A stretch of DNA of 64,000 bases from Halobellus rarus (GTDB lineage Archaea > Halobacteriota > Halobacteria > Halobacteriales > Haloferacaceae). The notes beneath the pieces were generated by a model. It was not told the origin of the DNA, searched no databases, and was given only the letters and a program-made list of their open reading frames with translations. Position numbers and translations under genes: made by a program. Each line of letters begins with the position of its first letter. The first letter of the stretch is position 1. Location: assembly GCF_024494595.1 (NCBI RefSeq), contig NZ_JANHDI010000014.1, positions 1 to 64,000 on the forward strand, written 5' to 3'. Below are positions 1,021 to 8,130 of the stretch, one piece after another.

Positions 1021-1359
1021 CTAGTCGAGTTCGTCTCGAACAGACCCGACCTGCGGTCCCAGCAATGGAATCTCTTCTTGGATTGTTGTCCAGACAATCC
1101 GTAGTTCGACGGTGGCGTATCCGTGAATGAGTTTATCACGCATCCCGGCCATTTCCGACCACGGTACATCACTGTACTCTTGGCGAACATCTTCCGGTAC
1201 GTTTTTCGCTGCCTCACCGATCACCTCGAAATTCCGGAGGACGGCGTCGATTGTCTTTGGATCCTCGACGAACTCCTCGTAGCCCATCTCGCTAGTGTAT
1301 CGTTCAATCTTTTCGACGGCTTCAAGAATGTCATCTAGATAATCAAGGACTTCCCTCAT
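1021..1359 (-). CDS. hepT: HepT-like HEPN ribonuclease toxin (DUF86)
   Basis: A 112-residue all-helical HEPN-domain protein. The signature R-x4-H-x-Y motif is present as RDKLIHGY (Arg74, His79, Tyr81), preceded by the usual VPW and GMRD context. In characterised HepT proteins this motif forms the RNase active site, and the tyrosine is the residue modified by the partner MntA. The start overlaps the stop of the mntA gene by 4 nt (ATGA at 1356-1359), so the two are translated from one message. Length and motif are normal for the family, so the toxin is probably functional. Cellular RNA target is not predictable from sequence. Confidence 0.9.
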   Translation of the reverse strand: MREVLDYLDDILEAVEKIERYTSEMGYEEFVEDPKTIDAVLRNFEVIGEAAKNVPEDVRQEYSDVPWSEMAGMRDKLIHGYATVELRIVWTTIQEEIPLLGPQVGSVRDELD

Positions 1360-1779: not shown

Positions 1780-2172
1780 ATGATGACAGATCGAAGCTTC
1801 CGACAGAAAGTCATCGACGAGTACGGCAACGAGTGTCTGCTTTGTGGTCGCTCGCCCTCGGATGGATACGACCGCCGCCAGGGACTCTCAACGCATCACG
1901 TGAACGGTGACGCGTCGGATAATCGCCTCGAAAACGTGATTCCCGTCTGTCAGAGCTGTCATATCCATATTCATCGATCGGATACGCCACCATATCGAAA
2001 GTGGCATCGACAGCTCCCACTGGAGGCTCGAAACTACTGGAATCAATTCACGGAGCGGCCATATACGGGTCCGCAACTTTCGCGGGAGGAAGCCGAACGT
2101 CGCTTTGGTGATGCGGGTGGCACGCCTCGAGGAACGCGCTACTTTGACGCTGATGATGAACGTGGTCCGTGA
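1780..2172 (+). CDS. HNH endonuclease
   Basis: A 130-residue HNH nuclease. A zinc-binding knuckle is visible as CLLC (Cys19, Cys22) and CQSC (Cys57, Cys60). The catalytic stretch is THHVNGD (His39-His40), then NRLENVIPVC, then HIHIH (His61-His65), in the usual spacing of the beta-beta-alpha-metal fold. The frame is open far upstream to 1378, but that part overlaps mntA antisense and reads like a shadow; the ATG pair at 1780 and 1783 is the sensible start. Such small stand-alone HNH proteins are common in mobile and defence regions. The C-terminal half (after about residue 75) is polar and unassigned. Two small genes follow on the same strand. Confidence 0.85.
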   Translation: MMTDRSFRQKVIDEYGNECLLCGRSPSDGYDRRQGLSTHHVNGDASDNRLENVIPVCQSCHIHIHRSDTPPYRKWHRQLPLEARNYWNQFTERPYTGPQLSREEAERRFGDAGGTPRGTRYFDADDERGP

Positions 2173-2935: not shown

Positions 2936-3367
2936 TCAACCACGCAAACCGTCCTCCGCGATGTGATCGATCACCGCCCGCTGCTGGCGACGAAGCGACT
3001 CGTGTTGCTCGTCAAATTTCTCTTCGATAGCTGTCCTGAACTGCTCGAATGCTTGTTGATCGCCACACAGGAGTTCACCGTTCATGGCATCGTGTGCGAC
3101 AGCCAGTGGAAGGGATTCGATATCAGAGACATCAATGAACGGGAGCGCCTCGTGCTGCAGATCACCAGAGAGGAAACAGTGCTTCTCGAATCGGTCACCC
3201 GCGGAGAGTTCATCTGCAAACTTGATTGCAAGGTCGAAATCGGACGACTGGGCCGACTCCCCCGAAATCTGTGAGCCAAACACGATAGCAAACACGATGT
3301 CCGGATCAGAGCACACTGTCTTCTCAAGAGTTGAGAGTACCTGTGAATGATCCGCACTCCTGTTCAT
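2936..3367 (-). CDS. Orphan MNT-type nucleotidyltransferase
   Basis: A 143-residue nucleotidyltransferase-fold protein. The G-S-x10-D-x-D motif is intact (Gly31-Ser32, Asp43, Asp45; FGSQISGESAQSSDFDLAI). It is longer than the MntA at 1356-1649 and has an extra helical C-terminal region (EQFRTAIEEKFDEQHESLRRQ), which may act as a built-in substrate-binding part. No HEPN gene lies next to it: the DNA on its 3' side up to 2877 is only about 60 nt. It is therefore an orphan or works with a distant partner. The ATG at 3365-3367 is chosen; a second one 12 nt upstream is possible. Confidence 0.8.
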   Translation of the reverse strand: MNRSADHSQVLSTLEKTVCSDPDIVFAIVFGSQISGESAQSSDFDLAIKFADELSAGDRFEKHCFLSGDLQHEALPFIDVSDIESLPLAVAHDAMNGELLCGDQQAFEQFRTAIEEKFDEQHESLRRQQRAVIDHIAEDGLRG

Positions 3368-3572
3368 AGATAAGAGCACGCCGTATCGTCACAAAAGAAT
3401 TCCGCTGGATCGAGTTCTTGTTCCGGCCTTGTGGACTCATAATGTATATTTGCGAATTGGTTTTATCCGATCAGGGGATCTAAAAAAACTACAAACAGTG
3501 GTATTGTTCTCCGAATGCGGTATCACAGAGGCACCCTCTGACGTTTCAACCCTCCACACTTTATTTCACTTC

Positions 3573-3901: not shown

Positions 3902-4055
3902 TAGGGGAGGGCTCTATCGCATACTTGTTGACAGCTAACCAATAATATTTGTTACGACATAGTGTTGTGAAGCTCGAATCAATTGTTCCCCTGTACTGAG
4001 AGATTCCCATTCAGGTATAGCAACTCTTCTATGACATCTTGGTGTACACTCTTAG

Positions 4056-4075
4056 CTTGCAGGAAGTGCAAATAA
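4056..4075 (+). repeat. 20-bp direct repeat, copy 2
   Basis: Identical to 1738-1757 and in the same orientation. The distance between the copies is 2318 bp. The surrounding DNA (3902-4143) has no gene that I can support. Confidence 0.85.
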
Positions 4076-4143
4076 TACGGTATCGCTTCTAGCAACTCGT
4101 ATGCGATCGACGATATCCAGTCCGTGTTTCAGGGAGGGAGCAC

Positions 4144-4398
4144 CTATGAATCCGGTGACTCCTCGTCTTCGAACGCTTTCACGAGATACTGGCCGTTTTC
4201 CGAAAGCTGGTAGATCTTCTTCCCGTCGCGTTCGGCGGCGATTTCGATCATCCCCGCGTCCCGGAGTTCGCGCAAGTGCGTGTAGATATAGCCGTGGCTG
4301 AGATCCAACTCGGCTGCGAGTGCGTAACCGTGCAGCGGTTCCGTTCGCAGTTGTCGTAAGATTTCCAACTTGGTGTCGCTGATCAGTCCGCCCATCAT
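4144..4398 (-). CDS. PadR-like winged-helix regulator
   Basis: An 84-residue winged-helix DNA-binding protein of the PadR type. Helix 1 is ISDTKLEILRQL, the PadR-like HGYALAAEL follows, then the recognition helix SHGYIYTHLRELRDAGMI and a wing with RDGKKIYQLSENG. Members usually repress their own and neighbouring genes. It is divergent from the HalOD1/DUF7504-type gene at 4585. The shared intergenic stretch has a TATA-rich run (4428-4438) for this gene and an imperfect inverted repeat at 4442-4459 that is a good operator candidate. Confidence 0.85.
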   Translation of the reverse strand: MMGGLISDTKLEILRQLRTEPLHGYALAAELDLSHGYIYTHLRELRDAGMIEIAAERDGKKIYQLSENGQYLVKAFEDEESPDS

Positions 4399-4441
4399 AC
4401 GGTGGATTCAGACCCATCAGGGGAAACATATATAATAGAAA

Positions 4442-4459
4442 CTGCTGACCGATCAGTAG
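4442..4459. promoter_or_regulatory. Probable PadR operator
   Basis: CTGCTGA-CCGA-TCAGTAG: seven-base arms matching at six of seven positions around a 4-nt centre. It lies just upstream of the TATA-rich stretch of the PadR gene and 125 nt before the gene at 4585. Operator function is inferred from symmetry and position. Confidence 0.5.
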
Positions 4460-4584
4460 AAACAAACAAGTCAACGGTTCAAGTAGAGTGATGTATCCCA
4501 GCACCGTTCGAGGTTCCAGTGTGCTGCTGTCGGACCGTCGCTCCCGAAATCGATCATCACCGACTACCCACCCAGACACAGACG

Positions 4585-5469
4585 ATGGATTCACAAACTG
4601 AGCCTGTTCTCAGGCCCTCCGAAGGAGACGCCCCGTTGAGTACTCGAGTCGCGACGACGGTTGCGTGGCTCGAAGGAGTCGAGCAGACTGCGCTCACACC
4701 GCTGCAGGACGTCATCGATGTGGATGCGCTGCAGGAGTTGCCCACCGATGCGGAACGCCCATCCGTTACAGCGGGGTTCGATTACGAGGGGTATCGTATC
4801 GACTTCAACAGTGACGGTACGATCACCGTCGACGGGACGCCGGCATCGACTGATGGAACGATTGCGCCCGGGACGAGCGTCTTGTGTATCGGACCCGCAG
4901 GCGACAGCACAGAGTACATCGAGTGGCCGACGTATACGATCGCTGGTCCGACCGATCATCAGGCGTGGCTTGAAGTGTTTGCCAAGGATGGGGATATCCC
5001 ATCTACCAACGAAGACGAAGCGGAACTGGAATTCACAGCGCCCACCACACGACAAACGCCCTTCGTCTGTGGGGCCGGTGAAGAGTCCGCGCAGATCGCA
5101 TCTCACCACAGACTCGGAGTCGATTACGATCACCCACAGCCGGAGAAGCAAGTCGTGAGAATCTCCGACTGTGGGGACCTCTCGACACTCGGTCAGCGGG
5201 TGAGCGACCAGCTGGCCGTCTGGGAAAGAGTCGGAGCGAATTCGGTCGTTCGGATCCACTCGCTTGCGCCATTTCTCGATGCGTCAGCGCTCTCACAGCT
5301 GTTTCAGTTTTTCCACCTGCTCATCGGACAGGTCGCTGCTACTGACACATTCTTACAGGTGCAGTGTGATGCTACTTTAGTTGCTGAACGGACAATCGAT
5401 ACTCTTGATCCGCTGTTCGATGTCGTGATCGAGTTCGATGCGGATGGGCGATTTTCAGTCTCCATTTGA
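4585..5469 (+). CDS. HalOD1 plus DUF7504-like signalling protein
   Basis: A 294-residue haloarchaeal signalling protein. Residues about 20-90 form a HalOD1 domain (TPLQDVIDVDALQEL, then FDYEGYRIDFNSDGTITVDG). The C-terminal part from about residue 200 (VVRISDCGDLSTLGQRVSDQL, LAPFLDASALSQLFQFFHLL, FDVVIEFD) resembles the DUF7504 domain found with HalOD1 in haloarchaea, a RecA-like fold without a P-loop. No membrane segment. The ATG at 4585 starts the conserved part; the frame extends 22 codons upstream without support. It is divergent from the PadR gene and 81 nt ahead of the RNA ligase gene. Confidence 0.75.
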   Translation: MDSQTEPVLRPSEGDAPLSTRVATTVAWLEGVEQTALTPLQDVIDVDALQELPTDAERPSVTAGFDYEGYRIDFNSDGTITVDGTPASTDGTIAPGTSVLCIGPAGDSTEYIEWPTYTIAGPTDHQAWLEVFAKDGDIPSTNEDEAELEFTAPTTRQTPFVCGAGEESAQIASHHRLGVDYDHPQPEKQVVRISDCGDLSTLGQRVSDQLAVWERVGANSVVRIHSLAPFLDASALSQLFQFFHLLIGQVAATDTFLQVQCDATLVAERTIDTLDPLFDVVIEFDADGRFSVSI

Positions 5470-5550
5470 ACGCTCAGAGCAATATCGAAACGCTCAGTAT
5501 CGCCTCCTACAGGTAGCTTGACAGCGAGAACGATCACGGGCTCTTAAACA

Positions 5551-6624
5551 ATGAAGGTATACCCAAAGATCCCCCGTCACGATCATCCTGTCGTTCCGGA
5601 GGCGTTCTTCGACTCCGAGGACCTGGTGGTCGTCGAGAAATTCGACGGGAGTGCGTTCCGATTCACGCTCTACGACGAGCGCTACGCCGATGTGTATCCT
5701 AAAATCGTCGTGGATGCCGCCGATGGCGATGGGAGCATCGTTTTCGGAACGCGGAAATCCATCAGAGGCTGTGCGAATGACAATCTCGAAGAGATCGATG
5801 GGGCCCTTCATCGTGCCGTCCGCTGTCTTCGCGAGGGCATCGAATCGGACGTCCTCCGGAGACTCCACGACGAATACAGCAGTCCACTGATCGTGTATGC
5901 GGAGAATCTCGTCTATTCGACGCTTGATTACGGTTACACGGACGGCTCTCTCCCAGCACTGATCGGTTTCGACGTCCTCCCGTATTCGGATGTCAAGACG
6001 ATGATGTCACCGGCAAATCCCTATGCCGAGACGTTCGATGGATTCCTTTCGACGACTGCGACCTGGAACGTCCTCGAGCAGATTCGTGATGAGAGGGCGC
6101 CGACCGAACACGCGTTCGTCCCAGCTACGATCCTCGCCGAGGCGGACGGGTTCGATCCCGAGAGCTACGAGTTCCCGACTTCCTCGCTTTCCGAGGACGT
6201 TCGCGTGGAAGGTGTCGTCGTCCGAAGCGACGCCCACGACCGACGTGTGAAACTCGTCCGCGAAGCGTTTCGGGAACTGAACCGCGAGCAGTTCGGTCAG
6301 CATCCCGACGAGACCGACACCGGTGCAGAGTATCTCGTCGCGGCGTACTGCACGCCTGCTCGAATTCGCACTGAAGTTCGATCGATGGTCATAGAAGAGG
6401 GACGGGAGTTCGGGATCCACCTCGCGGACGATCTCTATCCGCGCGTCGTCGAGGACATCTGGACCGAAAACTATCAAGAGATAATGCAGCTCAATATTGA
6501 ACTCACGCCTGCAGATGTCTATCCGCTCGTCGCCAAACGGTGTGTGGCAGAACTCCGGAAGATGGAGACGAACGCCGAATTGAACGCTGCCGATCCAACT
6601 ACGATCTGGCACCACCTCTCATAG
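5551..6624 (+). CDS. RNA ligase family protein
   Basis: A 357-residue protein of the nucleotidyltransferase RNA ligase family, which seals RNA nicks via a ligase-AMP intermediate. Motif I is EKFDGSAFRF with Lys30 as the predicted AMP-accepting residue. Other motifs are YAENL (about 116-120, motif III-like with Glu118), VEGVVVR (219-225, motif IV) and RRVKLV (231-236, motif V with Lys234). The C-terminal 110 residues are helical and unassigned. It follows the HalOD1/DUF7504-like gene in the same direction; the 81-nt gap contains a 9-bp direct repeat (AACGCTCAG at 5469 and 5489), which could be a regulatory site. RNA repair after damage by nucleases is the obvious role, but the substrate is unknown. 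Confidence 0.85.
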   Translation: MKVYPKIPRHDHPVVPEAFFDSEDLVVVEKFDGSAFRFTLYDERYADVYPKIVVDAADGDGSIVFGTRKSIRGCANDNLEEIDGALHRAVRCLREGIESDVLRRLHDEYSSPLIVYAENLVYSTLDYGYTDGSLPALIGFDVLPYSDVKTMMSPANPYAETFDGFLSTTATWNVLEQIRDERAPTEHAFVPATILAEADGFDPESYEFPTSSLSEDVRVEGVVVRSDAHDRRVKLVREAFRELNREQFGQHPDETDTGAEYLVAAYCTPARIRTEVRSMVIEEGREFGIHLADDLYPRVVEDIWTENYQEIMQLNIELTPADVYPLVAKRCVAELRKMETNAELNAADPTTIWHHLS

Positions 6625-6712: not shown

Positions 6713-7144
6713 TCAGACTGATGCTGGTTGTGTATCCCCGAAATCGCCCTGCGAAATTCTGAACGAGAAGTCGAGAGTCTCGCTTCCTCCACGGAGGATC
6801 GGACGCTTTCGGCCGCCGCCCTCCTCGAATTCGATTACGCCCAACTCCTCGAGATCCTCTAGGTTTCGGTGGACCTCTCGGTAGTCTCGCTCGACGATTT
6901 CCGAAGTTTCCCGGATGCTTTCGGGGCGTTCGTCCACGATCGCCTCCAAGAGTTCCAGGTTCGACGTTCGCATCAGCCGCTCGACGTCGGTGAAATCTTC
7001 GAAGTTGAGGATGAACTGTGCATCCTGCTCGATCGTCTCGTTGGTCTCACCGGCCTCTGCGCGCTCCAAGCGCTTCCGAGCCGCCGTGCGGTGGTCGTCG
7101 GCCTGTCCGAACGTAATCTTAAGTGTGTTCGTGGTCGTGCTCAT
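6713..7144 (-). CDS. TumA-like HTH antitoxin (HVO_A0114 type)
   Basis: A 143-residue helix-turn-helix protein of the type paired with DUF6516 proteins in archaea. The winged helix covers about residues 62-120 (LELLEAIVDERPESIRETSEI, then VHRNLEDLEELGVIEF, and a basic wing). The N-terminal 60 residues include a polar helix likely to contact the toxin. The ATG at 7142-7144 overlaps the stop of the TumE-like gene by 4 nt, so toxin and antitoxin are co-translated with the toxin first. It probably also represses the operon through the two operators upstream of the toxin gene. Confidence 0.8.
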   Translation of the reverse strand: MSTTTNTLKITFGQADDHRTAARKRLERAEAGETNETIEQDAQFILNFEDFTDVERLMRTSNLELLEAIVDERPESIRETSEIVERDYREVHRNLEDLEELGVIEFEEGGGRKRPILRGGSETLDFSFRISQGDFGDTQPASV

Positions 7145-7422
7145 GGTAATTCTTCGATCTCCTCCAGGAACTGCTCTCGTAGCGCCATCATCCCTGGAAA
7201 CTTGATTTCTCTGATATCGTCGGTAGTGTGGCACTCGTGGCGTCCCGGTGTCTGGTTCTCGTTGTCGTAGCGGAGGATGGTGCCGCGCCCGTCAGTATAC
7301 CCGTAGTGGAGCGCGTAGCGGTACCCACTCGGAAATTTCTCATCATTGGTCCGGATGATCTTCCGGCGGATCACCCGATTGTCGACGCGGTCCTCCACAT
7401 CTTCGATGACCGCGTGCACCAT
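7141..7422 (-). CDS. tumE: TumE-family toxin (DUF6516)
   Basis: A 93-residue protein of the DUF6516 family, annotated in databases as toxin-antitoxin TumE. Typical are the beta-rich N-terminal half with RRKIIRT, the segment YALHYGYTDGRGTILRYDN, and the histidine-containing GRHECHTTDD followed by a helix. The biochemical activity of the family is not well defined. It is the first gene of a two-gene operon and its promoter is covered by a TATA-like AT run and two 16-bp palindromic sites. Confidence 0.85.
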   Translation of the reverse strand: MVHAVIEDVEDRVDNRVIRRKIIRTNDEKFPSGYRYALHYGYTDGRGTILRYDNENQTPGRHECHTTDDIREIKFPGMMALREQFLEEIEELP

Positions 7423-7564: not shown

Positions 7565-7598
7565 ATTATGCACGCGATAATATTATCGTCTGCATAAT
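7565..7598. promoter_or_regulatory. 34-bp palindrome over the ATPase start codon
   Basis: Arms ATTATGCA (7565-7572) and TGCATAAT (7591-7598) flank a perfect 14-bp palindrome CGATAATATTATCG (7575-7588); only the two base pairs between them do not match. The ATG of the following ATPase gene (7597-7599) overlaps the right arm. A repressor site that blocks promoter or start is likely; the AT-rich core could also be a TATA element. Confidence 0.7.
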
Positions 7599-8130
7599 GA
7601 TTGACCGGGATGCGGAACTGGACTGGTTGGGCTCACATCTTGCTCAGGACGACCGTCAGTTGCTCGTCCTGTATGGTCGCCGGCGTGTCGGAAAGACGAC
7701 ACTGGTGACGACAGCACTGGATGCGATCGACACACAATCAGTGTATTACCTCTGTGACCAGCGTGGATCCACACAGAATGCGGAACAGTTTGCGGCCCAC
7801 TGTGCCGATCGGTTCGACGACGTCACCCCGGCCGTCGACGGCTTCGTCGATGCGTTCCAGTATCTCACGAACCGCGTTGACGACGCCTGTGTGGTCGCCC
7901 TTGATGAGTTCCGAGAAAACGTCGGCGACCCGATACGCACGGCCGAATTCGTCGAACCAGGCGGTCGGTAGGGGTGTCCAAGACTGACACGGGGAATTTG
8001 AGTACATATCCAAACTGGAGAAACCGATCGAGCATTGCCTTCGCGAACTCATCGCGGAGACAGGGTGCAGCACCGAGTTTCCGATGAGTGGTCGCGCCGA
8101 GACCTGGGGTTTGAGAGGCCCAAGAGTACG
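7597..8130 (+). pseudogene. Broken archaeal ATPase of the DUF234 type
   Basis: The first 106 codons encode a normal start of an archaeal ATPase (MIDRDAELDWLG, P-loop GRRRVGKTTL at about 27-36, YYLCDQRG, and Walker B CVVALDEF near residue 98-105). After DEF the sequence departs from the family and the frame stops at 7971, whereas intact members have around 450 residues. From about 7990 another stretch reads FEYISKLEKP, then RELIAETG, which resembles the C-terminal DUF234 part, so an internal deletion plus frameshift is likely. The C-terminal match is tentative. Related genes are frequent in haloarchaeal accessory regions. Confidence 0.6.

Follow-up and report, generated by a model that had tools for sequence, protein, structure and literature searches.

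What is known of RNA repair after damage by toxins comes mostly from bacteria and phages. In bacteria, repair of ribotoxin damage has been shown for the Pnkp1-Rnl-Hen1 (PMC4411300) and RtcB2-PrfH (PMC9223846) modules; among archaea, ligases of the Rnl3 type have been tied to HARP (PMC12153264), and the halovirus HGTV-1 has been reported to carry two ligases of the Rnl2 family (PMC8651126). A published survey has further described HalOD1 domains fused to divergent KaiC-like domains (PMC5847659). Here we set these systems beside a locus in a 64,000-nucleotide stretch of Halobellus rarus DNA (the window), which is part of a haloarchaeal genome of 3.66 Mb (25 contigs). With moderate confidence, we read its central gene as an accessory Rnl2-type RNA ligase that elsewhere belongs to a variable RNA-repair cassette and that in the window stands orphaned beside an unrelated module.

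The ligase gene (LIG; 5551..6624, + strand, 357 aa) is assigned to the Rnl2 type by its match to PF09414 (RNA_ligase; 30.6 bits, above the curated Pfam cut-off of 27), by phrog_548, by its invariant motifs and by a predicted-fold match. The earlier note, made from the window sequence, had described an intact RNA ligase with Lys30, a KxDG motif and later motifs, and this description is borne out: the catalytic K30 (codon 5638-5640) lies within EKFDG and is followed on the same strand by E118 of motif III (5902-5904), D141 of motif IIIa (5971-5973), E220 of motif IV (6208-6210) and K234 of motif V (6250-6252). We aligned the window protein with 16 orthologues, 12 shorter relatives (the L2 form discussed below) and two viral sequences; E29, K30, D32, R68, E118, D141, E220, R232 and K234 are invariant in 17/17 LIG rows (window plus orthologues), in which the catalytic Lys and motifs Ia, III, IIIa, IV and V are all intact, so that the conservation of the Lys in relatives, set as a check by the same note, is complete. 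An AlphaFold model from the 31-sequence alignment (mean pLDDT 82) finds full-length T4 Rnl2 as its top PDB match (E 3e-7), with trypanosome REL1, a Naegleria ligase and T4 Rnl1 next in the ranking. Against T4 Rnl2 the TM-score is only ~0.4 (rmsd 18 A over the whole chain), and the match of the C-terminal domain is for this reason not firm. A PDB search with the single LIG sequence returned no match, a profile search returned weak matches only, to Rnl3-type structures (2vug, 3qwu), and PADLOC models matched neither the ligase nor the HalOD1 protein encoded upstream of it. The ligase most likely seals RNA breaks.

Distribution of the ligase is patchy: of 391 genomes in the haloarchaeal class, 37 (~9%) have it, and many copies are broken. 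For comparison of gene contexts, 29 named loci were combined with others from whole genomes and duplicates were removed, leaving 48 distinct ligase sequences besides that of the window (38 full length, 10 partial or broken); that 10/48 sampled loci are partial indicates that the ligase is often dispensable. Branching in the ligase tree departs from the family classification, a pattern suggestive of horizontal movement, and transfer of this kind has probably taken place. The window copy clusters (91/87) with copies from Halarchaeum, Haloglomus and the genome G305, all of which have a gene of one short family, A, upstream.

Indeed, genes of two short families that match nothing in Pfam are repeatedly found directly upstream of the ligase: A (~80 aa, charged, probably helical) at 20/48 loci and B (~88 aa) at 13/48, with about half of the 48 loci having neither. 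A second PF09414 ligase (L2), which LIG exceeds by ~70 residues through insertions, lies near LIG at ~6/48 loci; a seventh candidate, in L092, proved to be a partial second copy of LIG, and matches labelled X at +989..+1072 of the ligase are out-of-frame overlaps with the ligase end, not genes. Gene order varies between genomes, being A-B-LIG in Halorubrum and Haloglomus, A-LIG in Halarchaeum and G222, and A-L2-LIG in G305 as well as in Halorientalis salina and persicus, where L2 and LIG overlap by ATGA. Furthermore, a divergent RtcB (RtcB2; ~185-206 bits against PF01139, canonical RtcB scoring ~550) lies within 4 kb of the ligase in five genomes (Halorhabdus, Halorientalis, Salinibaculum, Halococcus and Natronomonas), a linkage with P of about 1e-10 to 3e-10 under a uniform null; all five also have the canonical RtcB. 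An A-RtcB pair is found ~9 kb from the ligase in G189, and A precedes L2 without LIG in two genomes. A is present in 20 of 242 genomes and B in 12; no ligase adjoins 7/20 A genes and 5/12 B genes in these class samples. The window genome yielded neither A nor B, and the window copy is therefore best read as an orphan.

Several further arrangements were seen among these families. In Halarchaeum acidiphilum (L072, L073) the ligase is present twice, in diverged copies that lie on different contigs and both have A upstream. In two genomes (L187:5162-6525, L188:6294-7657), B directly precedes an AspBHI-N/HNH endonuclease of methylation-dependent-restriction type, which may tie B to defence. Seven genomes, including Haloquadratum (G009, G011, G012, G017, G024, G091, G107), yielded the divergent RtcB but no canonical one.

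The window ligase sits among toxin-antitoxin genes, as the earlier note had suspected when it placed probable RNA-cutting toxins of the HepT and TumE-like kinds within 6 kb. Pfam confirms both, HepT at 1021-1359 (- strand; PF01934, 109 bits; also supported by NCBIfam), ~4.2 kb from the ligase, and TumE at 7141-7422 (- strand; PF20126, 45 bits), ~0.5 kb from it; their partners are MntA (1356-1649, -; Pfam and NCBIfam) and an HTH protein of the HVO_A0114 type (6713-7144, -; Pfam). These two pairs are neighbours of the ligase, and any functional tie to it is putative. Elsewhere, HTH genes of the DUF7342 type lie near the ligase at 15/48 loci, and behind several of these HTH genes comes a gene with weak TumE similarity (21 bits in one case). 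With per-genome counts as the toxin-antitoxin background, DUF7342 genes occur within 6 kb of the ligase in 11/22 genomes against 0.99 expected (P ~5e-10), although this uniform null overstates any specific ligase-toxin-antitoxin linkage because toxin-antitoxin genes cluster; the enrichment shows residence in toxin-antitoxin islands, not a dedicated link. An enrichment of canonical TumE was considered and rejected, since among the loci compared only the window has it close to the ligase.

Other features of these surroundings may be recorded here. A second MntA-like nucleotidyltransferase (2936-3379, -) has no HepT partner in the window, and one also lies beside a ligase remnant in L035. A truncated ATPase_2-type gene of 124 aa (7597-7971, +) has full-length relatives (~460-480 aa) near several other ligase loci. 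In Haloarchaeobius (L093:7893-9590, the same locus as L148), the ligase frame continues in frame into a DUF7342-type domain, an apparent ligase-antitoxin fusion that is followed by a TumE-like gene.

By the chemistry of its family, the ligase would adenylate itself on Lys30 at the expense of ATP, pass the AMP to a 5'-phosphate RNA end and then seal that end to a 3'-OH; its targets may be nicked or broken RNAs, for instance tRNA or rRNA cut by a nuclease, and in this way it could be linked to RNA damage. Elsewhere it appears to travel with A and/or B, a second PF09414 ligase and an extra RtcB inside toxin-antitoxin-rich islands, and the likely benefit of such a cassette would be survival of RNA cleavage by toxins or viruses. 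HEPN-type RNases generally leave a cyclic phosphate and a 5'-OH, ends that Rnl2 enzymes cannot seal, so their cuts would need end-healing enzymes before sealing. No such enzyme was recognised among the neighbours scanned, and it is this need above all that leaves a gap in the case for repair of toxin damage. Some relatives have an extra RtcB, which could work directly on cyclic-phosphate/5'-OH ends. The window locus taken alone is ordinary, and the other partners lend the repair theme partial support.

We consider it unlikely that the ligase instead works in ordinary RNA processing, for example in making circular RNA, in intron joining or in the maturation of tRNA. Archaeal Rnl3 does circularise RNA and is linked to protein-only RNase P (PMC12153264), and the Rnl2-type ligases of HGTV-1 have been suggested to act on tRNA introns (PMC8651126); however, a gene that is found in only ~9% of genomes and is often broken, and whose context is toxin-antitoxin-rich islands, fits such a role poorly, and the window genome has the canonical RtcB, the usual tRNA-splicing ligase. 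Still more doubtful, in our judgement, is that the ligase is a counter-defence gene of a virus or mobile element left in the chromosome, comparable to the T4 ligases that undo cuts by host anticodon nucleases. A distant homologue exists in HGTV-1 (gene 217; 27%, E 1e-15) and L2 is related to two viral contigs, but the ligase has no close relative in phage records or, with the patterns used for scanning, in viral contigs, and its relatives were found in cellular assemblies, where their other neighbours are of host type. An accessory ligase with a putative part in RNA repair remains our preferred reading, which leaves the genes upstream of it to be placed.

Upstream of the ligase, the window encodes a HalOD1-DUF7504 signalling-type protein (4585..5469, +, 294 aa; HalOD1 62 bits, DUF7504 56 bits by Pfam), whose ORF spans 4519-5469 with ATG 4585 as its likely start, and a divergent PadR/ArsR-like winged-helix repressor (4144..4398, -, 84 aa; HTH_5 37 bits, PadR 35 bits by Pfam). 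The PadR promoter (4405..4460) has a TATA-like stretch (~4428-4437) flanked by two CTGACC-N2-TCAG-type sites, at 4409-4420 (one mismatch) and 4445-4456, which are kept in three other genomes. Over the whole window the motif count is not above chance, so that support for these sites as operators comes from their conservation; they fit an autoregulated repressor. A signalling-type HalOD1/DUF7504-like gene ahead of the ligase and a divergent PadR regulator with its own operator are thus both upheld from the earlier note, and all the genes have open reading frames at the positions given. The divergent pair also occurs in G002 (94 and 73% identity), G113 and G036 (81 and 35%), three genomes in which no ligase was found. 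An HNH endonuclease-like frame in the window (1813-2172, +) has weak ZorE similarity (24 bits) and is 92% identical in G002, where it lies beside the PadR-HalOD1 pair.

That these three genes form one regulated RNA-repair unit, as the earlier note had proposed, is not sustained by the comparison of genomes. Neither PadR nor HalOD1 lies within 4 kb of the ligase at any of the 48 other distinct loci, so that the ligase stands in other genomes without these neighbours when the three genes are sought side by side. Between the window and G002 (blastn against L061), 82% identity extends over 4055 to 5476 and then gives way to divergence, 7 bp past the HalOD1 stop and before the ligase start, and the remaining shared blocks are rearranged; the junction itself (5470..5550) has no similarity to DNA upstream of other ligases. 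The break and the rearranged blocks indicate that the ligase was either brought next to an independent module or taken away from one; in the direction we infer, it would have lost or left its partners, and recombination would have put it next to PadR and HalOD1-DUF7504. Together with the ligase-less pairs and the 0/48 loci, the homology break rules out a conserved three-gene unit: PadR and HalOD1 are a separate module, their adjacency to the ligase is by chance, and regulation of the ligase by either is unsupported, as is a response of the ligase to damage. A dedicated operon in which PadR represses, HalOD1-DUF7504 senses a signal and the ligase is switched on is thus very improbable, even though HalOD1 and ligase share a strand with 81 bp from stop to start, making read-through possible, and the PadR promoter has conserved operators, given that no other ligase locus shares these neighbours, that the pair recurs where the ligase was not found and that homology breaks between HalOD1 and ligase. 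The lesson of the window is corrective, in that adjacency alone suggested a regulated unit and genome comparison removes it. The broader suggestion of an RNA-repair ligase among RNA-cutting toxins finds support at the level of the family, through A, B, the second Rnl, the extra RtcB and the DUF7342 enrichment, and fails for the PadR and HalOD1 partners.

Compared with known systems, the module resembles the haloarchaeal HalOD1-KaiC-like proteins in its HalOD1 domain, and DUF7504 may correspond to the divergent KaiC-like domain of the published survey (PMC5847659); it differs in that its HalOD1 gene is paired with a divergent PadR gene and with operators conserved in four genomes. The ligase shares motifs I, III, IIIa, IV and V with the T4 Rnl2 family (including trypanosome REL1 and the HGTV-1 Rnl2-type enzymes), and its overall predicted fold is similar, with a tentative match over the helical C-terminal region, but identity to T4 Rnl2 over the structural match is only 14%, and the context of A, B, L2 and RtcB2 sets it apart. 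With archaeal Rnl3 (the Pab1020 family) it has the nucleotidyltransferase core in common, as in the weak profile matches above; the structural match to Rnl3 (E 2e-3 to 4e-3) is weaker than that to Rnl2, the four enzymes named above rank higher, and its neighbours differ from the HARP association of Rnl3, so that we do not assign it to that family. No description of the LIG family or of A/B was found in the literature, of which the subscription part was partly covered. We tentatively propose a modular RNA-repair cassette of haloarchaea, so far undescribed, with A and B as escorts of interchangeable ligases (long Rnl2-type LIG, short L2, extra RtcB) in toxin-antitoxin-rich islands, which would protect cells from RNA-cleaving toxins or viruses; if so, A/B-ligase-RtcB cassettes would extend toxin-damage RNA repair to archaea and give a testable role to A and B. 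These loci resemble bacterial Pnkp1-Rnl-Hen1 and RtcB2-PrfH in having an RNA ligase or an extra RtcB within a small cluster. Pnkp, Hen1 and PrfH were not recognised by Pfam in the subset of window and relative neighbours scanned, and the haloarchaeal partners A and B have no Pfam match; the comparison suggests that the cassette seen across the family is an undescribed variation on RNA-repair clusters of a known kind.
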